NCBI RefSeq assembly: GCF_022201045.2
Contig: NC_068557.1
Coordinates: 25,459,501 to 25,523,500, forward strand
Direction: 5' to 3'
Length of the DNA: 64,000 nucleotides
Source of the DNA: Citrus sinensis
Taxonomy: Eukaryota; Streptophyta; Magnoliopsida; Sapindales; Rutaceae
The notes below the pieces were generated by a model. That model did no database searches. It saw nothing but the letters and a program-made list of their open reading frames with translations, and had not been told where the DNA came from. Of this stretch, positions 9,096 to 62,600 are shown piece after piece; the first letter of the stretch is position 1, and each line of letters starts with the position of its first letter. The translations under genes and the position numbers were made by a program.

Positions 9096-12000
9096 CTATA
9101 CTTTGTTAGTTGAAGAGTCTGCTGGTGAGCCCGGCGAAGATAAGAAAGGTTTGGGTGGGATTTGCAAGGAATGGTGGCTTGCTTCCAACATTTCCACTAC
9201 TCTATTCATTGTTGGCTGGCTTGAGGGGTTAGTCTGTGTACACCACAAGCATACAATTATCATCTTCCTTGCATATTCTATATCTTCTTCATTTTCAATG
9301 CCTTGCAGTCCAAGTTCTTCATCCTTTTCTAGACGCTTGTAAATCCAATGCGGTGCTTCCATTATCCACAACATCAACGTTCTTTCTTCCTCCAGTCATT
9401 TCGAAAATCATCATTCCGTAGTTATAAACATCCGACTTGTAAGAGACTTCCCCAATATTTCTACAGAATACTTCTGGAGCAATATACCCAACAGTTCCCC
9501 GTGCACCTGTCATTGAGATGATACTCTCTTTCCTGTTGCAGATTTTAGCTAGGCCGAAATCAGAGATCTTGGGACAGAAGTCTTCATCTAGAAGAATGTT
9601 ATGAGGCTTGATGTCAAAATGCAGAATTCGTGTACTGCAGCCAAGGTGCAAGTACTCTAATCCTCGAGCTATGCCTACTGCAATTTGGAGCAACGTTTCC
9701 CAGGTCAATTTATGATTTTCTATCGATGAGCTGTTTCTATAAATGAACTTCTCCAGAGATCCATTGGACACAAACTCGTAGATGAGAGCTCTTCTGCGAC
9801 CCTCAAACAGAATCCTAAAAGAGCGACAACGTTAACATGGGAAGTCCTGCTAATGCTAGCAACCTCGTTGATGAATTCTTTACCATTTCCTTTTGAATCA
9901 TTTAAGACTTTTACCGCCACATTACTACCGTCAAGTAGTTTTCCTTTGTAAACACTTCCATAGCCTCCTTGGCCGAGTTTATATTTGAAAGAATTGGTCA
10001 TTTTCTTAATATCTGCATAGCCATATCTTTTAGGAGATAGAGATCGATAATTCCTTAAAAATGTCTCAATGTTCAGACAACTTGCAGTGGAATTGTATGA
10101 TGAAAGTTTTCTCTTGAAGTAAAAGGCTATAAATATCAATATGCCAATTGCAAAGGCTGATGCTCCTGCAACCAGAGAAAGGAGTCGCTGTCAACCTAAA
10201 ATTTCTTTCTCTAATTAAAGACAGATGGATGCTTCCTTCAAAACTATGAGTAGAAGCCAAAAAATAGTTCAGCAAATTTTGGATGGTCCAAAAATTGTGC
10301 TAGCAGATGCTCCTTGATTCTATTGAGGGTTGCAAAAAAACACGAGTGGCAGAGAAGAAATTTGAAGCGATTATAAGGTATCCGAATTTATTTGAATGTA
10401 GAACAATAGCAAAAATGTAATAAAGGACGGACCTAAGCCGGACACTTGCCTTAGTCAAGTAGCAATACACCAATAATGAATTTGATTAAAAAGATACATT
10501 ACCTAGTCCTGGCAGAAGCTTCAATCTAAGTTTTCTGTTTCCTGCAACAGAATTAAACAAAGACTGGTGTTAGTTGAGACTGTTAAAAAATGTAATGATG
10601 TTCTCAAATCATCCAAATTTTGACCAAATTGGAGAGGCAACTGACAGAATAGCCTATCTCAACCAGATACAGAACTTGCTCCAACAAGTCTGCTGCTTTC
10701 TCCAAATGCAGGTAAAGGGACAGCCAAAATCCACCAAATAAATAAAAAGAGACTGAAAAATAGGAACTCGTTTTCTTGCATGTTATTAGATTAGACGTAG
10801 CTTATATAAATGTACAAAAACGAGAAAAAAAAAATTAGCTACTGACTCGGTGAGTAAAAAAAAAAGTGTTTTGTTCTTGGATTTTGTGATACAAAAAGAA
10901 GTATTTGGATAGGGGAATTTAGAGCTGGCAAAATTTGACACGACCCGATTATCCGACACGAACACGACATAAATAAATGGGTATGAGTCGTCAAATTTAA
11001 CACGATTATTAAATGGGTCGGGTCCGGGTCAATATGATTTTTTTCTGTGTCGGGTTTGGGTTAAAATTCTTGACCCATTTACCCGATCAATGACCCGATT
11101 ATATTTTCTATTTTAAAATAATTTACATATTCTTATAATTAAAACTCAAATATTAGAGATAATTTTCTTTTTTTTATTCTTTAAAAGGGTGAATATAAAC
11201 ACAATGTTTTATTTATAAAATTTTACATACATTTAGAGCTTCAATAGTGTAAATGTGTAAAAATTGATAGACATGTATATTTTATAATATTGATATATAA
11301 TATTATATATATATATAAAATTAAAACCTCAATAGTGTACATGTGTAATATATTGGTAGATATGTATATTTTATAATATCGATAAATTATGCATGTATGT
11401 ATGTATGTCTGTATGTATGTATGTATGTATGTATGCATGATAGTGTGTAAATATTTGATGTAACTTTTGTTCAATATATAGATATTAAACGGGTTATTGG
11501 GTAACCCGATTATTTTTCCGTGTCGGGTTTGGGTCTCAATATTTTGACACGATTATTAAATGGGTCGGGTTTGGGTCGACCTAAATTTGACACGACACGA
11601 AGCTGACACGACACGAACACGACCCGATGACCCGTTTTGCCAGCTCTAGGAGAATTCAAAACTTATAGATTAGCTCAGACACTGGCTTGCTAGTAATTTG
11701 GGATATTACAGGAATAAGAACGAATATGTGTATATTATACGTCCTAATGTAATTTTGATACCTGTCCGTTCGTTTTCACATTGAAAATTTCCCTTGCTAT
11801 CATTTTGACACTGGCCCCCTCTCCGGTGACATTCATCACAAATCCTCTGTACTTCCACTTGAAGAGAGAAAACTGAAGTTAACATATTGAACAAGACATC
11901 AGGTTTTCTAGTCTTATTCACTGGGAGCTGAATCAGTGAACAGTTAGGTGGAAGAATACTTGGTAAAGCATCATCCGGGTGATTGTAATAAATAAAGGAA

Positions 12001-12455
12001 CTATTGTTGCAGGTAGAATGGAAACTTGTGAGGTTGTTGTCAAGCTTGTCAGTGCATCGGAAGAGGCTTAGCTTGGATTTGATCTCAAAAGAGAGAGAAG
12101 CAGAGCTGGGGAGAGATAAATTTTTGAAGGATTCAGAGCTACGTTCGTTCAAGTGACTTTGAAACACCTGGTCTTCAAGTGTAATTGAAACATCCTGAGC
12201 GATGTTTAAAATATTATAAAACGGCCCGGCCTTCCCCAATCGAATTCTCTGAACTGGCTCGTTGCAGTTATCTACTACCATCAACCCACATTCAGGGTGC
12301 GTCCGATTGGTGAAAGGAAAGGTAAATTGACTGAGATTTCCACAGGGGGGAAAAGAAAATGGACATGTTTTATTCAGTTCACGTTCTTCTTCAGCCGAAG
12401 AAAGAAGTAAAAGTTGGGAGATAACAAAGAACACAAGAAACGAGTAACAAGCCAT
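9096..12455 (-). pseudogene. LRK10L-type receptor kinase: intact ectodomain exon, frameshifted kinase exon
   Basis: Exon 1 (11762-12455) is fully open. It encodes a signal peptide (about 1-21, ending LLLLSSAEE), the GUB_WAK domain (CPFSFPPCG, FTFPFTN, HPECGLMVVDNC) and the second cysteine region (CDECHRRGGQC). A GT donor follows NERTG at 11761. The large intron holds a 729-bp hAT element (10920-11648). The kinase exon has [36 protein letters not shown] and [10 protein letters not shown]. It carries a 1-nt loss near 9808 (before the LGFCFEG segment) and a 14-nt loss near 9354 compared with its paralogues. Together these restore the frame but leave about 150 codons misread, with a stop at 9720. 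Without splicing, exon 1 reads past its donor to a stop at 11706 (249 aa), so a secreted ectodomain is possible but unproven. Confidence 0.8.
10920..11648. mobile_element. Non-autonomous hAT-type element (729 bp)
   Basis: Perfect 14-bp terminal inverted repeats, TAGAGCTGGCAAAA and TTTTGCCAGCTCTA, are flanked by near-identical 8-bp duplications (ggggaatt at 10912-10919, ggagaatt at 11649-11656). Subterminal regions are dense in gacacg/cgggt motifs in both orientations. The middle is AT-rich with a gtat microsatellite (about 11391-11437). There is no transposase. The 8-bp duplication and end sequence fit the hAT superfamily. It sits in the intron of the receptor copy at 9096-12455 and is absent from the equivalent site at about 6.0 kb. 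Confidence 0.85.
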
Positions 12456-13869
12456 TAATATTCCGAATTCCCAATATGGCTGGAGAAATCAACTAATAAA
12501 CTACCAATAATATTCTTAGTCAACTAATAGACTACTAAGAATAATCTTTGTAATACGTCAAATTATCTTGCAATTTCTGCTTTTTTTCCTTGTCCGCGTG
12601 TTTGGTTGCTATATCCGTAGAACACGCCAGTTGACTTGGAAAGACTTGTAGACTGCTTTCTACTAGACACTTTGTCGCTGTAGGACGTGAAACAATTGAC
12701 TCGTTCAAAATGATGGATGAGTGTTTAACTCGTCCAGGAGAAGGGCCCCATTCGCTTCGTATTTTATGCAGCCTATATCACAGAGACGTAAAAACGAAGA
12801 ATATTAGGTAATTTGCAGCTGCATTTTTTTTTAAGGGAAAAAAATCATTCTTAATAAAAAGAAAAAAATATATAATAAATTATGGATAGGGCCGTGTCTA
12901 TAAAAATAGTTGTTCAAGGTCTAAGTATCTATACACTCTATTTGATACACTCTAGTTGATGTAAGATTTCTTCTACTTTATTCTGCTTATAACTTTTTTG
13001 TGATGGATAATAAAACTGAGTGCAAGCAAAGTGGTTAGAATAGGGACCCTTTTATAATTAGCTTTAAGATACAATTTAAAATTCTCGAACTCCTACTTTT
13101 AAACAAGTGAGTTTAACATAACTCTTTCAGGGGTTGTACTTCTAACTTATGGGACTAATGGTGCAAAAAAATAATAAAGTTCGAGTTGAGGCAAACGCTA
13201 ACTCAACTAGTAGGAACGCAGACTCCCCAAAGTAAAGGACATAGGCTATTCAATGATCTTCTTAATTTATACAATTTAAAAAAAGAGTTAATGTTGACCT
13301 GTTTTTTTTTTTTTAAAAAAAAAGCATGACACTAATAGGCTTTAATTTCATGAAAGAAAATAACGCAGTTTGATCAACTCCAATTTATGATGTTATTATC
13401 AAATGACAAAATTCTAGTTTTCGGAAGTCATTTCTTGATGGTTGCTAATCAAGTTATTGGGGATTGAAATAAATAGCATAATAATAACAAAAATAAAAAA
13501 AAGTTAAGTAGATGTCCACTGGCTTGCGTAAGTAAAAAGTTTGACTCTTAAAAAGACATTAATTTTATGAAAGATAATTACACGGTTTGATCCACTCTAT
13601 AATTAATGATGTTATTTTAAAATAACAAAATTTTCTAACTTTTGGAAATCTTGGAGGGAAATTAATTTGGTCAGTTTCTTGATTGATGGTGATCAAATAA
13701 TGCATGACTTGGAAAAATCTTCCCCCGTTCTTTCTTAATTTATTATTTGACTTTTGTTAATAAAATGAAAGAAAAACATAAAGAGAAATTAAACAGACGT
13801 AATCTGTTTGATAGAAACCTAAAATTTCTTTCTCCAATTAAAGACAAATATATGCTCCCTTCAAAACTA
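12456..13869. other. Intergenic, upstream of receptor copy; duplicated flank
   Basis: No gene. 12640-13140 is homologous to 14290-14585 plus 15441-15610, the flank of the fragment at 13.9-14.2 kb. Within it, 12751-12813 is the exact reverse complement of 14450-14512, so one copy carries a small inversion. The rest is AT-rich with runs of T and A. Confidence 0.6.
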
Positions 13870-14166
13870 TGGAACAAGTCATTAGATTTTCGAGTCTTAT
13901 GCACTGGGAGCTGAATCAGTGAACAGATAGGTGGAAGAATACTTGGTAAATCATCATCCGGGTGATTGTAATAAATAAAGGAGCCATTGTTGCAGGTAAA
14001 ATGGAAACTTGTGAGGTTATTGTCAAGCTTGTGGGTGCATCTGAAGAGAATTAGTTGTTCGGATTTGATACGAAAAGAGAGATAAGCAGAGCTGAGGAGA
14101 GAAATTTTTGAAAGATTCACAGCTACGTTCGTTCAAGTGACTTTGAAACACTAGGTCTTCAAGTGT
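13870..14166 (-). pseudogene. LRK10L ectodomain fragment
   Basis: An internal piece of the ectodomain exon, very close to 11890-12180: KISLLSSAYLSF, HKLDNNLTSFHFTCNN, YYNHPDDDLPSILPP and CSLIQLPVHKTRK. The signal peptide and first cysteine block are missing. At its 3' side it is fused directly to sequence equivalent to the later intron (13820-13868 matches about 10195-10245), so a deletion removed the exon end and splice donor. There is no kinase exon. Confidence 0.8.
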
Positions 14167-14589
14167 AATCGATTTTCAATAAATAATACATAACTAATAT
14201 ATATTCTTTGTCCTAAATTTCAATAAGAACTAATTAAAACCATATGTCGAAGGCCTCAAATATGATTGAGCCGGCCATGAATTAAGAGATACTGAAAGAA
14301 GTTCGAGCTGCGCATGACTGCATTCTACTGGACACTTTGTAGCTGTAGGACGTGAAACACTTGACTCATTCAAAGAGTGTTTACTCGTCCAGGAGAAGTG
14401 GCCCTTGAAGTAAGAATGTTTTTTTACCTTAAAAATAAATGCTGCTGTGAATTACCTAATATTCTTCGTTTTTACGTCTCTGTGATATAGGCTGCATAAA
14501 ATACGAAGCGAAAGTTTCATGCTCTTATATAATAAAGTATGGAAAGGGCCGTATCTCTAATATAATGTTCAAGATCTAAGTATTTTCTA

Positions 14590-15435
14590 TGTTAGAGAAT
14601 AATAAGAATATGGAGGCAAAGAACAAAGAAGTTTTCTTAGGATTTGAGACGTGTTTGCACACTTTGCTTTAAAGTTTTATTTGCCCTCACCAATCTTGGT
14701 TTGCTATAGAGTTTTAATGGCAAATTACCCCCAAGATATATCAAATCCTGAATACAATTTCTAGCAAATAAGATTGTATTTCCAGAACATATATGAAACG
14801 TTCAAAATCTGATTTATTTTTTTAATTGTATATGTTTCCTTTATGAAGAAGATGTTAATTCAAAAGAATGCAACCATTCGAAATGGTACTTCTTCAAAAA
14901 ACTCTTTTGGTTTGAATTTGCAACGATCAACACTTGAAATTTTCAAGCTTGTCAACCGTTTCTAGTTGACGCCTTTCTAGAAATAAATGGTTCACCGTTT
15001 TCTCAATAAACAGTGAGCCGTTTTATTCCAGAATGTCAAATATGTTGCTCTCTGTACATAAACGGTTAACCGTTTTCTCAATAACCGGTGAGCCGTTTTC
15101 TCTAGACCATAAAACATGCTCTCTGGATTTAAACGGTTAGCCGTTTTCTCCATAAACGGTGAGTCGTTTTCTCTAGACCATAAAACATGCTCTCTGGAGT
15201 TAAACGGTTAGCCGTTTTCTCCATAAACGGTACGCTGTTTTACCCAGAATAGAAAACATGCTCTCTGGACTTAAACGGTTAGCCGTTTTCTCCATAAATG
15301 GTACGTTGTTTTACCCAGAACAGAAAACATGCTCTCTGGACTTAAACGGTTAGCCGTTTTCTCAATAAACGGCAAACCGTTTTCGTCCAGAATATCAAAC
15401 CAAAAAACTTGAAAGATGTTACAATCTCTCTTACA
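14590..15435. mobile_element. 846-bp solo-LTR-like element with 71-bp internal array
   Basis: The element begins TGTTAGAGAATAA and ends TCTCTCTTACA (TG...CA). It is flanked by a perfect 5-bp duplication ttcta (14585-14589 and 15436-15440). It interrupts a stretch that is continuous near 12900-13000 in the duplicated copy. No coding sequence is present, so it is probably a solo LTR or a small non-autonomous LTR element. More than half of it is a 71-bp tandem array annotated separately. I did not find a convincing TATA box, so orientation is not assigned. Confidence 0.75.
14985..15400. repeat. Six-unit 71-bp tandem array of palindromic AAACGG/CCGTTT motifs
   Basis: The block aaacggttagccgttttctc recurs with starts at 15060, 15131, 15202, 15273 and 15344, exactly 71 bp apart, preceded by a diverged unit at 14985. 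Each unit holds a near-palindrome (in one unit the perfect AAACGGTTAACCGTTT) and a second, weaker AAACGG...CCGTTT pair. The rest of the unit reads roughly ccagaatagaaaacatgctctctgga. The conserved core fits the MYB-type CNGTTR/AACGG binding consensus on both strands; binding is inferred, not shown. Confidence 0.85.
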
Positions 15436-15779
15436 TTCTATGCATGACGCAAGGTTTCTTTACCTGTTCTACTTGTAGCTTCTTTGTGATGGATAACAAA
15501 ACTAAGTGCGAGCAAATTCGTTAGAATAGGGAACCTTTTATAATTAGCTTTAAGATACAATTTAAGACTCTGGAACTCCTACTATTAAACAAGTGAGATT
15601 AACATATCTCTTTCACTTCCTTTCATCAAAGACATGAATAAGTTATATACTCTAACTAGAAAATAGAACTGCGCTTCACGCGGCTTTGAAAAAAGAATTT
15701 AGTATTATCTTTTTTTCTTACTTTACACTTGATGAAACTGATAAAAAATATGAATTGATTTTTTTTAAGATGAGACAGC

Positions 15780-22380: not shown

Positions 22381-23307
22381 GATAGCGTTTACTTTTTGGA
22401 ATAGATTGGGAATCATGAGGAGTGGGAATCCTAGGATTGGGAGTGTGGAGTGGGAGTGAGAGTAGGTTGTTTACTTACACTGGAATAGAAGCATGTAATA
22501 GAGATCAGAATCTAATTTATGTATTTACTTTGTCTTGGATTGAGAGTAAATAGTTTTAAATTACAATTTTATCCTTATTTAAAAAATTATAGTTTTTAAT
22601 TACAAAACTAATAAAAAATATATTTAATGAATAATATTTATTTTATTATATTTTTAAATTTATTATAATTATTAATATTCTTAATTATGAACAATAAATT
22701 ATTAATTTTAATACAAAATGAAACCTTATTTTATTTTATTTAATATAATTATATTAAATTTATTATTATATAAAATAATAAAATAATATTATTTAGTACA
22801 AAATTAATATTTTCTTAGAATAAACTATTTATTATTATTATTATTAAATAAATATAGTACTATTATTTTTAAAATAAATATAATAATATTATATTTATTA
22901 ATTCTCTATTAATATAATAATATTATTTTAAAATAATTTTAACTTAGAATCAATGCAAATTATTATTTAGTTAAATATAATATTATTATTCAAATAAATA
23001 TAATAATATTATTCAAATAAATATAATAATATTATTCAAATAAATATAATAATATTATTCAAATAAATATAATAATATTTATTTTATTTTATTAATTATA
23101 AAATATTAAATTAAATTAAATTAAAAAAATAAAAGGGTAAAAAAGGGAGCCACCTCCCCCAATGGGAGTCCCACTCCCACTCCCCACTCCAAAAATAAGT
23201 GGGGCCTACGGAGTGTGATTCCCACTCCCTTTCCATTTAGAGGAAGTAAACGCTAGAGTGGGAGGAATCCACATTCCTCGCTCCCACTCCAGCAAATAAA
23301 CACAGCA
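22381..23307 (+). mobile_element. Tourist-like MITE, copy 1 (927 bp)
   Basis: Flanked by TAA (22378-22380, 23308-23310). The ends read GATAGCGTTTACTTTTTGGA and, reversed, TGCTGTGTTTACTTGCTGGA, so GTTTACTT is shared. The terminal 130 bp or so at each end are rich in tggagtggga and its complement; the middle is almost pure A/T. A second copy lies inverted at 58778-59665. Near 22985-23085 a 23-bp unit (caaataaatataataatatt plus att) repeats about four times. Confidence 0.8.
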
Positions 23308-24227: not shown

Positions 24228-27200
24228 ATGGATCAAAACTTCAAGTTTGGCCAGCTTATCATTTCCAAGTTTTCTCCATTAACAAGCTTCTGTATGTTCA
24301 TTCTTTACTTACTGCTAGCAAGAACAGTCTCAGGAAAAATCGACCCTCAATATCTAGCCTGTGTTGCAAAAACCTGTGGCGATGGCCAAAGCATAAGCTT
24401 CCCATTCTACATCGAAAATCAACAAGAAGCCTATTGTGGGTACCCAGGATTCAATCTCTCATGCAATGACAAAGGGAACCCAGTTCTCAAACTCTCCAGT
24501 GATACCAACTACATTGTTGAGAAAATTTTATACGATAATCACTCTGTTCTTGTATCAAACGCAGCCTTTTCTGAAACAAACAGCGACCCTGCTTGTACTT
24601 TTCCTCGCATAAAAAACGTGTCTCTTCCCGCAGATTTCCAGCTGGCTCCCGACCAAAAACAGGCGGTGTTGCTGTACAACTGCAACAGCTCATCGCCTGA
24701 GAAACTGTTACGGCATAAGCTGCTGGCTGGTAATTGTTCAGGTGATGATACAGTTTTGGGAATGTTTGAGGATGATTCTGATTTGGATTCTGCTTCCAAG
24801 CAATGTAAAGAATCTGCGGTGGCACCGGTGGCCGTGGATATGAATGGTGAGGGGATAGGTGATCATATTGGGATTGAAGAAATGGTGAGAAAAGGGTTTT
24901 TGTTGAAATGGAAAGCGAGTGACTGCCGCGCTTGTAAGGAAAGTGGCGGCAGCTGTGGCTTCGATGCGGATACTTTCCATTTCCAGTGTTATTGCCCCGA
25001 CAGGCGTCACGCAAAATTCTGTACCGCTTCTGGTAATTCTCTTCTCAAAAGAATTACTCAAATTGTTAACTTACAGCCATTGTGAAATCTGAAGCTAACT
25101 CTTAATTAAAAAACATGATTACATGGAAATAACGGCTGTCAAATTTAGACGCATAACAAATGGCGAAATCTGTAACGGTTTGGAAGTGGCTGGATTAAGA
25201 TCAGTCAAGGATTTTCTTATATTGATGAGCTAGTCTTATGAGTTGATTAACTTTTCTTGAAGGTTTATATGTTTATATAGGCAGAGCAAAGGATAGATTC
25301 ACATTATACAGGGTAGGAACTCAAATGGGAAATATTTTTGAGTGAGTGAACTGAGGGGGCAGTCACAAACTTAAAGATTAACACATAAGTTTGAATAAAA
25401 GTAATTTGTATAAAAATTTATAAATATTACTCTACCTTAAATAGAGTACTTATCATCCATCAAAAGTGGTTGACCCACACATTTAAATTTTTGGAGCTTA
25501 GTCTAAACAATTTATTTAGATTTATTTGAACATATTTGAAATCTCAAAAACTCAAATTCTATTCTTTTCTCATAAAATTTAAAAAATAATAATAACAAAT
25601 TATTTATTTTGAATATTAGACTCATTGAAATCTACTGTTGGGATTTGAACCGTCTAATGACACTTTTATAACTAAATTATAGACATTTAGATTTACGTCA
25701 AATATGGTCAATTTCTTTTTACTTGATTCTCTCAGAAGGGGTTCGAAATATACTGTGAAGGAAAAATTAATGCCGCAGGGTCCGCCCCCGTCCACCATGG
25801 AACTGACTCCAGATTATTATCATGTTATCAGCATATCTGATCAGTTTCTGGAATAAACAGTTTTGAATGATGAGATAGTGTTATGAAATTTGGCAAATCA
25901 GGCTCTCGGGAGCTTGCTTTGGTGTATATTGAGTTCTGTCAGTACTGAGTAGTATAGCGAGCAACAGTATAAACATTTCCTCATGACCAAGGTCATCTTT
26001 GTATCATGCATTCAAGAATACCAAGAACGCCATTCAACTCTCTGATGTTCAATTTTCTGTTTCCTTGGAGGGACTCTATTCAACAAAAGGGGTCCTCGGT
26101 TGTTAACCGGGAAATTGAAAAGAGGATGGGAGACAGGGGAACTCCAACAAGTAATAGAAGAGAGGGGAGGGCCCTCGAAAAGCCGAGTATTTATCTTCTA
26201 AATCCGTTTACACTTATCTATGTGTTTTTTTCCATAGAAAGCCAATAAACTAGATAAGCTGCATACAATCTAATAACATGCCACAAAACAAGTCACTCTC
26301 GTTCTACATGGTTTTCTTTATTTTCTAGATTTCTTCTGGCTCTTTACCTGGGTTTGGAGAAGGCGGCTGGTTTATTTCAACAAATTATATCAATTTCTAT
26401 AGTCTCAACTAACGCAACTTTGTTTTTACTTTGTTACAGGAGATGGCAAACTGAAATTGAAGGCCAAGGTGGCCCTGATAATAGGTAATGTATCCTTTTA
26501 ATCAAAACTGTTATTGGTATATGGTAATTATAATTAATTAAGGCAAGTGTTTAGTCTGTCCTTTTTGTATTTTTGCTGCTGTTCTGCCTTCAAATCACTT
26601 CAAATTTATTCTCTGTCGCAAATACTTCTTCGCAACCTTCTGTGGAAATAAGGAACCATTTAAGACACTGAGGATCCTCAATCTGCTAGCACAATTTGTG
26701 GAATAATTTGAATCTTTCTGCTTGTTCTTCAATTTCTACTTCTTAGGAAACTCCATCCGTCTTCAGTTGTTAGAGAATGCACTTTTGAGTGCCACCTTAG
26801 TTTTGATGACTCCTTTCTTTGATTGCAGGATTGCCTGTCTCTGCAATTTGCGTCATATTGATAATTATAGCTGTAAAGAAAAAAGTATCATCAGATAACT
26901 CAGTGATATTCTGGAAGAAAAAAACTGACAACCATCGAAACATTGAGGCATTTTTAAGGAACTATGGATCTCTAGCTCCTAAAAGATATAGTTATGCAGA
27001 TATTAAGAAAATGACCAATTCATTCAAAAACAAACTTGGCCAAGGAGGCTATGGAGGGGTTTACAAAGGCAAGCTACTTGATGGCCGGAATGTGGCTATA
27101 AAGGTCTTAAATGAAACCAAAGGTAATGGTGAAGATTTTATCAACGAGGTTGCTAGCATTAGCAGGACTTCCCATGTTAACATTGTCACTCTTCTAGGAT

Positions 27201-27961
27201 TCTGTTTTGAGGGTCACAGAAGAGCTCTCATCTATGAGTTTGTGTCCAATGGATCTCTTGAGAAGTTCATTTATGAAAAGCATCCATTGGAGACAAATCA
27301 AAAATTGAAGTGGGAAGTGTTGTACAAAATTGCAGTTGGCATTGCCCGAGGGTTAGAGTACTTACACCGTGGTTGCAACACCCGGATTCTGCACTTTGAC
27401 ATCAAGCCTCACAACATACTCCTAGATGAAGACTTCTGTCCAAAGATCTCTGATTTTGGCCTAGCTAAAATCTGTCACGGAAGAGAGAGTATTGTGTCGA
27501 TGACAGGTGCACGAGGTACTGTTGGCTATATTGCACCAGAAGTTTTCTGCAGGAACTTTGGAGAAGTCTCTTACAAGTCGGATGTCTATAGCTATGGAAT
27601 GATGGTTTTTGAAATGACTGGTGTAAAAAACAATGCCAATGTTGCAGTTGATCGTAGCAGTGAAATATATTTTCCACATTGGGTTTACAAGCGTCTTGAA
27701 CTAGAGGAGGACCTTGGATTGCAAGGCATTGAAAATGAAGAGGATAAAGAATATGCAAGGAAGATGATACTAGTGAGTTTGTGGTGCATACAGAACAACC
27801 CCTCGGACCGGCCAGCAATGAATCGGGTGGTGGAAATGTTGGAAGGAAGCCTTGATTCCTTACGAATTCCCCCCAGGCCTTTCTTGCTTTCTTCAGGATC
27901 ACAGCCAGATTCTTCAGGTACCCTAGTGCGCCAGACAGAGCCTTCAATGGCCACATGTTAA
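24228..27961 (+). CDS. Intact LRK10L-type (wall-associated-like) receptor kinase, 3 exons, 660 aa
   Basis: Exons 24228-25032, 26440-26484 and 26829-27961 join with matching phases and GT-AG ends. The product has a signal peptide (about 1-36) and a GUB_WAK_bind domain (about 44-110: [22 protein letters not shown]). A WAK-associated C-terminal domain follows (to 267: [19 protein letters not shown]), then a transmembrane helix (279-299). The kinase shows glycine loop LGQGGYGG 353-360, VAIK Lys375, helix-C Glu390 and DFG 492-494, and the tail ends PPRPFL. The catalytic loop reads LHFDIKPHN, with Phe473 in place of the usual Arg. That makes it a non-RD kinase, a type common among plant immune receptors. 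All catalytic residues are present. It probably signals from the plasma membrane in response to a wall or pathogen cue; the ligand is unknown. It is the only undamaged member of the cluster. Exon 2 encodes only the juxtamembrane [12 protein letters not shown]. Confidence 0.93.
25385..26258. other. Insertion of unknown origin in intron 1 of the intact receptor gene
   Basis: Absent from intron 1 of the collinear pseudogene, where flanks equivalent to about 25380 and 26262 are adjacent (about 18870). Its right half (about 25740-26240) is less AT-rich than the surrounding intron. It has an open stretch (26006-26248) reading [20 protein letters not shown] and ending in a hydrophobic run. The style suggests organelle-derived DNA, but I do not recognise a specific organelle gene and this could be a retroelement piece. 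Confidence 0.35.
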
Positions 27962-58777: not shown

Positions 58778-59665
58778 TGCTGTGTTTACTTGCTGGAGTG
58801 GGAGTGAGGAGTGTGGATTCCTCCCACTCCAGCGTTTACTTCCTCTAAATGAGAAGGGAGTGGGAATCCCACTCCGTGGGCCCCACTCATTTTTAGAGTG
58901 GGGAGTGGGAGTGGGACTCCCATTCCCACTCCCACCTCCCCCTTTTTTACCCTTTTATTTTTTAATTTAATTTAATTTAATTTAATATTTTATAATTAAT
59001 AAAATAAAATAAATATTATTATATTTATTTGAATAATATTATTATATTTATTTGAATAATAATATTATATTTAACTAAATAATAATTTACATTGATTATA
59101 AATTAAAATTATTTTAAAATAATATTATTATATTAATAGAGAATTAATAAATATAATATTATTATATTTATTTTAAAAATAATAGTACTATATTTATTTA
59201 ATATTAATAATAATAAATAGTTTATTCTAAGAAAATATTAATTTTGTACTAAATAATATTATATTATTATTTTATATAATAATAAATTTAATATAATTAT
59301 ATAAAATAAAATAAGGTTTCATTTTGTATTAAAATTAATAATTTATTGTTCATAATTAAGAATATTAATAATTATAATAAATTTACAAATATAATAAAAT
59401 AAATATTATTCATTAAATATATTTTTTATTAGTTTTGTAATTAAAAATTATAATTCTTTAAATAAGGATAAAATTATAATTTGAAACAATTTACTTCCAA
59501 TCCAAGACAAAGTAAACACATAAATTGGATTCTGATCTCTATTACATGCTTTCATTCCAGTGTAAGTAAACAACCTACTCCCACTCCCACTCCCACTCCA
59601 CACTCTCAATCCTAGGATTCCCACTCCTCTGGATTTCCAATCCAATCCAAAAAGTAAACGCTACC
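58778..59665 (-). mobile_element. Tourist-like MITE, copy 2 (888 bp), inverted relative to copy 1
   Basis: Reverse complement of the element at 22381-23307, nearly base for base in the terminal regions. It is flanked by TTA on both sides (58775-58777, 59666-59668). The ends read TGCTGTGTTTACTTGCTGGA and, reversed, GGTAGCGTTTACTTTTTGGA. The internal 23-bp unit occurs about twice here against four times in copy 1. Confidence 0.8.
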
Positions 59666-62600
59666 TTACTTGTGGTTACAACTTGCAAAAGCTAGTCTTG
59701 CAATGCAAGCTGAGTCATGGATATATGCATATACATATCGACTTGATTTCTACTGTGATGAGACCTATCTTTAATTTTGTGGTATGCATTCCATTAAAAT
59801 TTATTTTAGTTTCTTTTTGTTTGTTTATACTGATAATGAAGTTCTTCTCTAAGCCTTTTTTTCCCCCTCATTAGTAGGCACAGAAATAGGTTTTTTTTTT
59901 GGCTCCTTTATAATAAAATTGAGCATAACTGGAGCAGGGTTTTTTCTGGGGATCGATCGATATCGAGGACAATAGTGAGGCATGCCTTGAGCGAAAACTG
60001 GAATTGTCCTTTTCATATATATGACTCAAAAGATGCTTAGAAAGCTTCTGCCACTGACCTTTATATACAGTGTTTGACTTATATTGCACTTGTGTGTCCT
60101 AATATTGGAAGTGGATGCCATCATAGGAGGGCATAATTTAATTAAAGCATTCCGAATCTAAAGAAATCTGCGTGCTTAATATGCTCCACAACTTATCAAC
60201 CATACGCACCATACCTTATTGATGGATTCGAATTACCTAGTAGTAATATGTTACATGGGTAAAGTGACCAATGATTCTTAAGTTTCGATGGTGGTCCAAA
60301 ATATGACGTATTTGTTAAGACTGAACAGGATATCTAACCAATATGTATTTAGATCCAAAGTTTTATATCGTGAGAGAAATTTACATAATTTGGATCGGCT
60401 AATCAAAATTTGCCATCAGTCCTTAACTGTATTTTTTTTCTCCAATCATATGATTTGTTAATTTCATATATCACACATATATTTATCAAAATTTTAATAT
60501 ACAAACCTATATTATCATCCATATATTGTATTATTGTATTTTTTCTCTAATCATATGATTTGTTAATTTTATATATCACACATATATTTATCAAAATTTT
60601 AATATAAATACCTATATTATCATCCGTATATTGTATTATTGTATTTCTTTTCTTCAATCATATGATTTGTTAATTTCATATATCACACGTATATTTATTA
60701 AAATTTTATTGTACAAACCTATATTATCATTTGTATATTGTATGCAGTATGCGTACCTATTTGTATAAACATTATCAATAAATTTCTTCGAAGTTTGGTT
60801 TAGTTTGGTTTATAATGCCATTAAATTTGTTAATTATATAAACATGAACTAACATTAAACTTTTACAAATATGGAAACCTTTCGAGTTGATCAAGTGTAG
60901 GGTATTAATTACGATACGATAATGTTTTAGTTAAACGCAATCGTGGAAATGAAGAAGGTGCAAGGTGCACCCAAAGAACCTAAAAGCTAGCCATGAAAAT
61001 GACACGAGCTAATGTAAAGTTAGTGCTAATAACTTTCACCAATGGTGGATTATCCATAAAGAGACGGATTAAATGAGTTTTTAAATTGGATGATGCGTGC
61101 CAAACATACGGATAACACACTTACCTAATTTATTTAATGCCAAAACATACTCTCTCTCCCACTTACAAAGTGACCCTTTTGATGGTAGTGGTGATTACTA
61201 ATTAATTTAGTCCATGTTTCCGATGTGTATTCAAGCAAATAGTCGCACGAAATTTTTTTTAACTCTCTCTATTCTTGGTGGGCAAGTTTAAAAACGATTT
61301 ACAGATTCTTCTTCACCATTAATTAAGAGAGAAGTTATCCTCGACTCAAATCAGGTACACACACAGCCAGACCATAAAAAATATATATATAAGAAAAGAA
61401 GATACTTTGTTTTCTTTTATGCCAAGCGCATGCATGTTAAGTCACTAATAATAATTTAATTAGTATCCATTAAGATGAAGATTTTACTTTTACGAAAGGA
61501 TTAAGGATCAGATAACGGATCACACCGCAAACGAAAAAGAATGCTCGTTTGGTTTCTTACAGTGAAATGAATATCCATGACGCATATGAAGACGTATGAT
61601 TCCTTAATAATTCCCAGTACCATGGCCGTTCATTCAATTCACTCACCGAACGTCATTGAATATTCGTCGTGTCAAATGACCTTTTGCTACGGCACGATGC
61701 GTGGGTGACGTGTAGTTTTGTTTTCAATGGAAAATTAATAACAGTCAATCGAATATGAAGATCATGACTGATTCTTTTCTCCTAACGGGAAAAATAAATA
61801 AATAAGTAAACCATGATTAATAATAAAAGTAAGAAAGAAAGCGCAGTTATTTATTTTTTTGTTGGTGGGTCTATTTATAAGATTATTTATCTGAGTACTA
61901 CTTAAATATGTAGTAAATTCTATTTGTTGACGGAATCTAACTATACATCAATAAATTAGAAATATACTTGTTTATTCAATTATGTTGATTAAAAATAGAT
62001 TAGTAGTATATATATATATATAAAATAGATTAGTAGTAGAATGAAAAACGTTTAATCTAGCGCAATTTTTGTAATCATTAACTTGGTTGAAAAAAAAAAA
62101 AGAGTTTATTTTGTGCTAGGTTAAATATTAACTCGTAATGCTTAGTTTTACAAATAATTTTAAAACTTTTTTCACGTATACAGTGGTATGGCCAGGATAA
62201 ATTTAATTTTTTTTTTTAAGAAATTGATTTTCCTCAAGTGTTAATATATAATTTTAGATTTTACATACTCACTTAAAGTGCTTTAACGATCATAATTTAA
62301 TTTTAAGTCTATATTTTTATATACTATTCAAAATTGATGGGAACAAATTAAAAATTTTATTGGGAGTAAATAAAACTTTTAGTTGGGTTTCTGCAAAAAA
62401 TTAACCTCAAGTTTCCATGTGGCTACGCTACTACAGGTATATATGGCTTGATCCAATGCATGGATTACCATCGACATAAATTATTACAAAATAAATTAAT
62501 TAGATACTTAAAACATTTGTCAAATACTTAGTACTTTTAAATATCCTAAACATTATTAAAAAAAATTTAAGTCGTTAATCAACATAGACGGCCCACCGTC

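Follow-up and report, generated by a model that had tools for sequence, protein, structure and literature searches.

The question raised by this locus is what a regular array of short palindromes does inside a long terminal repeat (LTR) of Citrus sinensis, and from where the element that carries it obtained it. We have analyzed a window of 64 kb (the whole stretch of DNA considered here), located on contig C2 of the 300-Mb assembly, 11 contigs, in which the genome searches were carried out.

A solo LTR with an array of twin palindromes

The element is an 846-bp solo LTR on the minus strand (14590..15435), with TG..CA ends and the perfect target-site duplication TTCTA at either side (14585..14589 and 15436..15440). 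The initial annotation had delimited the same element and its coordinates proved exact. Within it lies an array of units made of two 16-bp palindromes AAACGG-N4-CCGTTT that are 23 bp apart, with 48 bp to the next twin (TRF gives a period of 71, 5.8 copies and a score of 488). In sense order, and all on the minus strand, the twin modules are located at 15344..15382 (boxes 15367-15382 and 15344-15359), 15273..15311 (boxes 15296-15311 and 15273-15288), 15202..15240 (boxes 15225-15240 and 15202-15217), 15131..15169 (boxes 15154-15169 and 15131-15146), 15060..15098 (boxes 15083-15098 and 15060-15075) and 14985..15023 (boxes 15008-15023 and 14985-15000). The first five unit starts are exactly 71 bp apart and the sixth module, a diverged one, lies 75 bp from the fifth, so that the spacing first described holds in full. 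The pairing of AAACGG with CCGTTT had been noticed too, together with one perfect 16-bp palindrome, which is indeed present (AAACGGTTAACCGTTT, 15060-15075); what had to be corrected is the composition of the unit, since each one holds two palindromes. This copy has therefore 12 boxes, of which 6 have both arms perfect. Actually, 18 of the 31 AAACGG or CCGTTT words of the 64-kb window fall inside the 846 bp of the LTR.

The solo LTR adjoins receptor-like kinase gene fragments with WAK-type extracellular domains (GUB_WAK_bind, WAK_assoc, Pkinase; 9319-14120), and an intact-looking pair of WAK-type receptor-like kinase ORFs is found at 24228-27961. The window also contains two AT-rich arrays, both with a period of 23 bp and separated by about 36 kb (22803-23085 and 58956-59284), and a 105-bp tandem repeat in three copies, 90% alike (60428-60743).

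A search of the genome for relatives of 14590-15435 gave 211 candidates, and 40 scored matches plus one fragment. The LTR set of this group, which we call family A, comprises 40 sequences (39 genomic copies and the one in the window, two further LTRs of pairs being left out). Many of them form pairs separated by slightly more than 5 kb and thus represent complete elements, in contrast to the solo copy of the window. An exact 5-bp duplication flanks 7 of the 10 solo copies, the window one included, and the outer ends of the complete elements match in 9 of 12 pairs in an automatic duplication check. Between the LTRs we found, in this order, a gag piece, a GAG-pre-integrase, an integrase core and an RVT_2 domain (pieces L097 and L048), and this order, with the integrase before RVT_2, identifies family A as Ty1/copia. 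At one LTR end the gag ATG comes after ATCTTTAAGG; its position and the INT-RT order indicate that the sense strand of the element is the minus strand of the window, an orientation that the initial annotation had missed. The LTR pairs of single elements show 0.5 to 5.4% divergence away from the cores, indicating that family A has transposed at various times, in some cases recently. Each LTR holds from 3 to 7 twin modules (40 LTRs), and 6 of the 12 complete elements have two LTRs that are unequal by a box or by entire units. Since both LTRs come from one template, array length must change during or after transposition, perhaps through reverse-transcription slippage or unequal exchange.

The array occupies sense positions 54-451 of the LTR, the start of U3, and sits in the U3 of the full-length relatives as well, as the initial annotation supposed. 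Downstream of it, in the sense direction, comes a conserved TTGATATATC block and then AATAAA. Outside the array, conservation is highest (mean 0.993) over a 15-bp block, the candidate TATA region TTGATATATCTTGGG at 14730..14744, and the AATAAA at 14676..14681 is a putative polyadenylation signal, both on the minus strand. The whole appears to be a real and well-delimited cis-regulatory array, whose position, geometry and conservation suggest an enhancer function.

Palindrome contexts and Sirevirus marks in the genome

The N4 spacing is the one that stands out over the genome. The pattern AAACGGNNNNCCGTTT (N4) occurs 2185 times, compared to 12 for the pattern read backwards, and AAACGGYTARCCGTTT occurs 889 times, compared to 0 for its reversed control. 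At spacings of 5-14 bp, pooled, there were 206 occurrences vs. 300 in the reversed control. Within family A loci, all the 217 exact arm pairs lying 0-15 bp apart were of the N4 type. The 50 N4 sites listed (chromosome 1, 25 loci) were all inside contexts of family A or of a second family, B; when exact sites were followed over all the 40 loci taken, 85 of 86 were in these contexts and the remaining one was located 7 bp outside a match. Three contexts can be distinguished: the LTRs of family A, the LTRs of family B, and the interior of B between RNase H and an extra ORF. Another palindrome, AAACGGCAGC..GCTGCCGTTT, recurs at single places genome-wide (e.g., C1:2468354-2468377) and is perhaps the end of another repeat.

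Family B is a Copia family with an LTR of about 1.4 kb, an element of about 10 kb and an extra ORF that matches PF20167. In its LTR a TATA is found 39-42 bp beyond the last box in 29 of 32 cases, and at exactly 41 bp in 25. Inside the element, between RNase H and the PF20167 ORF, the TATA lies 7-8 bp beyond the box in 6 of 9 copies, and in the one copy measured the ATG of this ORF is 361 bp past the internal TATA. These internal boxes and TATA, a candidate internal promoter, are located for example in C1:9472200-9477700 (L059, minus strand), and also in L058, L079, L085, L091 and L093. The polyC signal was present in 11 of 11 family B loci checked; the iMet primer-binding site (PBS) and the polypurine tract (PPT) GGGGGAG-AT/TG were each found in 4 of 11, most loci showing one junction only. 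Judged by its sequence, family B appears to carry the marks of a Sirevirus: iMet PBS, PPT, polyC, RM boxes upstream of the TATA and an extra ORF.

The boxes themselves have a precedent in this lineage. Sirevirus RM boxes are symmetric repeats with a CGG-CCG core, located in the LTR upstream of a conserved TATA (Bousios et al., 2010; PMC2829016), with further copies upstream of ENV; the box given for a Citrus Sirevirus in Table 3 of that work is AATCCGGCTWRCCGGATT, of the CGG-N4-CCG type. The excerpts of the same paper used here state that the motif is specific to Sireviruses and absent from classic elements, that no common binder was found, and that no conclusive identification was made of an internal promoter for the ENV-like ORF. 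The boxes before the TATA upstream of the extra ORF of family B support the idea of such a promoter. Like the RM boxes, those of family A are symmetric, high in copy number, with a CGG-CCG core and placed in U3 upstream of a candidate TATA. The differences are that they read AAACGG-N4-CCGTTT, in twin modules forming a 71-bp tandem array, and that family A is a classic-type Copia of about 6 kb, without iMet site, Sirevirus PPT, polyC or extra ORF. We found no report of an RM box outside Sireviruses in the excerpts of PMC2829016 or in the open-licence literature, nor in the latter the literal sequences of the boxes described here.

By RT tree, primer site, PPT, polyC and size, family A does not appear to be a Sirevirus. 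The tree had 43 rows, including 40 of the 150 listed RT places, and its Sirevirus side is represented by family B, without a named reference RT. A branch (support 98/97) sets 15 rows, A among them, apart from 28 that include B. The A side holds, besides A itself, six near-identical rows, two sister rows at 64% identity and another six rows; on the B side, 24 of the 28 rows are not known B and do not exceed 90% likeness to B. The Sirevirus PBS TATCAGAGC after CA/ATTGG is absent from the 11 left junctions of family A, all of which read ATCTTTAAGG, and TGGTATCAGA was found in 1 of 39 family A loci. The 5' junctions of family A (e.g., L010 and L026) are without an iMet primer site beside the 5' LTR and read ATCTTTAAGGTTTTA... 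The Sirevirus PPT AGGGGGAG followed by AT/TG was not found in 15 of 16 right junctions, which read AGTGGGGAT/TG; their PPT is AGTGGGGA, the AT/TG step itself being shared with Sireviruses. A PPT substitution of this type is common in classic elements, according to the same excerpts (PMC2829016). The polyC signal CACCCCC was found in 0 of 40 family A LTRs. The one element measured is about 6.1 kb long, with a linker of about 0.55 kb and no long ORF in it, vs. about 10.5 kb and a long linker or an ENV-like ORF in Sireviruses. The one Sirevirus mark that family A does have is the RM box with its CGG-CCG core, in the LTR. The array was absent from the 3' regions of the ten other Copia elements sampled, both sisters of A included (regions that may not span the whole LTR), and a single site with two mismatches was the sole box-like match among them.

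Conservation of the boxes and their candidate binder

What distinguishes the two LTRs of one element has arisen after insertion, and what distinguishes one element from another includes also the active period of the lineage. We have compared both, taking as core the 12 arm positions of each box (12 LTR pairs, 28 elements, 1000 bootstraps). Relative to the LTR outside the array, core change was 1.93 (1.24-3.03) within elements and 0.75 (0.61-0.89) between them. Without CpG-type changes the values were 1.32 (0.89-2.06) and 0.42 (0.30-0.56). The spacers gave 1.03 within and 0.89 between elements, without a contrast like that of the cores. Silenced DNA would be expected to lose CpG-rich sites in this way, with a faster decay of the cores after insertion. 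When the comparison is restricted to LTRs of equal length, the contrast shrinks to 1.37 within (6 pairs) vs. 0.88 between elements (157 comparisons), and the counts of private vs. shared variants gave no significant difference between cores and the LTR outside the array (OR 1.52, p 0.19) or between cores and spacers (OR 1.29, p 0.49). We regard selection on the box cores as likely but not proven. The initial annotation had proposed that the cores are kept while the spacers drift, a view that genome copies with cores decaying as fast as the spacers would contradict. Between elements the proposal stands (0.75 vs. 0.89); such copies are found within single elements, where the cores decay faster (1.93-fold), and not between lineages.

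Which molecule would read the boxes can be approached from the positions that they tolerate to change. The MSA consensus is AACGG-YY and the MYB core is AAC-N-G. The initial annotation suggested that the array may be a MYB-driven enhancer; in this reading 3R-MYB or R2R3-MYB factors would bind AACGG, perhaps with expression in M phase. In agreement with AACGG-YY, the base after AAACGG is C or T in 226 of 229 perfect sites of family A and in 66 of 66 sites of the B LTRs, and mutating AACGG, the MSA core, abolishes the reporter activity of one promoter (PMC8964727, in the portion used here). The tolerance to change points in another direction. Facing a perfect half-site, non-CpG-type changes affected the third A in 37 of 577 cases in A and 51 of 282 in the B LTRs, the first A in 97 of 282 in the B LTRs, the second A in 3 of 577 and 5 of 282, and the two positions of C-G together in 3 of 577 and 4 of 282. 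With AAC-N-G, the opposite would be predicted at the third A and at the middle G; these changes stem from few independent events, so that MYB binding is weakened and no further. A constant CG, with an A two positions upstream, accounts for the pattern better than AAC-N-G does and is in line with the CGG-CCG of other Sireviruses. Besides, the exact inverted N4 spacing exceeds what single MYB sites need, the RM boxes of other Sireviruses keep CGG-CCG and not AACGG (the Citrus box being AATCCGGCTWRCCGGATT; PMC2829016, in its excerpts), and the 50 listed sites, with 0 outside families A and B, lend no support to a host cell-cycle motif. A literature search found no paper linking 3R-MYB/MSA or DUO1 to retrotransposon LTRs. 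With the tolerance test unfavourable, control by 3R-MYB/MSA or DUO1 was dropped as the lead reading and kept as a rival that we consider unlikely.

Still less probable is that the palindromes act as RNA or single-stranded DNA hairpins (in packaging, processing or as triggers of small RNAs) instead of as protein sites on DNA. The array does fold as RNA far better than its shuffles (z -6.64, 0/100), compared to the rest of the LTR (z -2.01, 2/100), and maize Sirevirus palindromes are described as small-RNA hotspots in parts of PMC5311732 and PMC10760457, although small RNAs can be a by-product. Against a hairpin, compensatory pairing was not apparent, with 98 double arm changes seen vs. 107.4 expected over six pairs in 326 unique 16-mers (sites preselected at 4 mismatches or fewer), and the fixed distance to the TATA in two promoters points to DNA.

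Origin and use of the shared module

The explanation that we prefer, and consider quite probable, is that the array is an enhancer module common to Sireviruses and to one unrelated Copia family, made of U3 transcription-factor sites of the RM-box type. A host protein would bind the symmetric site, either in dimeric form or with two monomers facing each other, and activate transcription from the LTR. Boxes of this type are known from Sireviruses, and what is new is to find them as a module in the unrelated family A. Within this explanation, that the module was shared by transfer seems to us somewhat better than an even chance, and recombination or template switching might have carried it from Sirevirus LTRs into family A. 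The evidence comes from a comparison in which the palindromes were fixed and the other letters shuffled (200 shuffles; 9 of the 32 B LTRs). Modules of A and of the B LTRs were alike beyond the palindromes for 3 of 3 A modules (p = 0.005, the floor of 200 shuffles). With the internal module of B the result was mixed: p for the mean was 0.030, 0.38 and 0.005, and for the maximum 0.68, 0.50 and 0.08. A TCTGGA..TCCAGA frame keeps an identical distance to the box (3 bp) in the A and B LTRs. The score of A modules to their nearest B had a median of 70, vs. 56 between B modules elsewhere in one LTR, as expected of a module drawn from the B pool.

Both families could instead have gained or kept the boxes independently under one host factor, by convergence or deep ancestry and with no transfer. 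RM boxes are found across Sireviruses with differing flanks (PMC2829016, in its excerpts), so that short symmetric boxes can recur, and convergence, or vertical loss in other Copia lineages, might account for the sharing. We regard this as doubtful: the likeness of the A and B LTR modules exceeds the palindromes and is at least as high as that among the B modules of one LTR, and the sister elements of A, at 64% RT identity, are without the array in the 3' regions sampled. A neutral growth of the 71-bp array by slippage, without function, would fit the unstable number of units (3 to 7 modules in 40 LTRs, with 6 of 12 LTR pairs different in length). It seems to us most improbable, considering that cores and not spacers are conserved between elements despite their faster mutation after insertion, and that the module recurs in family B at a fixed distance from the TATA.

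The proposed enhancer module shared with Sireviruses can also be compared to other known systems. In the tobacco elements Tnt1 and Tto1, short tandem U3 repeats of variable number drive transcription, and Tto1 is MYB-linked. Family A resembles them in having short tandem U3 repeats that vary in number; the likening to these elements in the initial annotation has to give way, as the box belongs instead to the RM type of Sireviruses (PMC2829016, in its excerpts). The maize Sirevirus palindromes also form clusters in the LTR control region and evolve rapidly, with a different host and a different box, CACCGGACNNNGTCCGGTG (PMC5311732 and PMC10760457, in part). The maize palindrome is described there as the commonest motif in structured Helitron regions too, so that sharing between kinds of elements is not unheard of. 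ONSEN is likewise a Copia with host factor sites in its LTR (PMC3907296, in part). Its heat-response elements differ in that TTCnnGAA stands beside some boxes here and is not their constant part. For this reason heat-shock elements were rejected as the main reading; the outer frame is TCTGGA..TCCAGA at fixed offsets, with TCCAGA located 3 bp past the box in 39 of 109 contexts of family A, 29 of 234 of the B LTRs and 5 of 31 of the B interior.

It is conceivable, and in our view very unlikely, that family A is a regulatory parasite of Sireviruses, having adopted their RM-box module so as to respond to a trans-acting factor common to both, and that this factor is partly element-made, namely the PF20167 protein of B. 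The candidate internal promoter of B carries the same boxes before the PF20167 ORF, 7-8 bp before the TATA in 6 of 9 copies. If true, a single Sirevirus gene would regulate not only its own promoter but also the LTR of the Sirevirus and a Copia family foreign to it. The data suggest that plant retrotransposons can exchange enhancers as modules. Two independent promoters are available to probe this one, the family A LTR and the TATA upstream of the Sirevirus extra ORF, and the fixed 16-bp site can serve as bait for the host factor.
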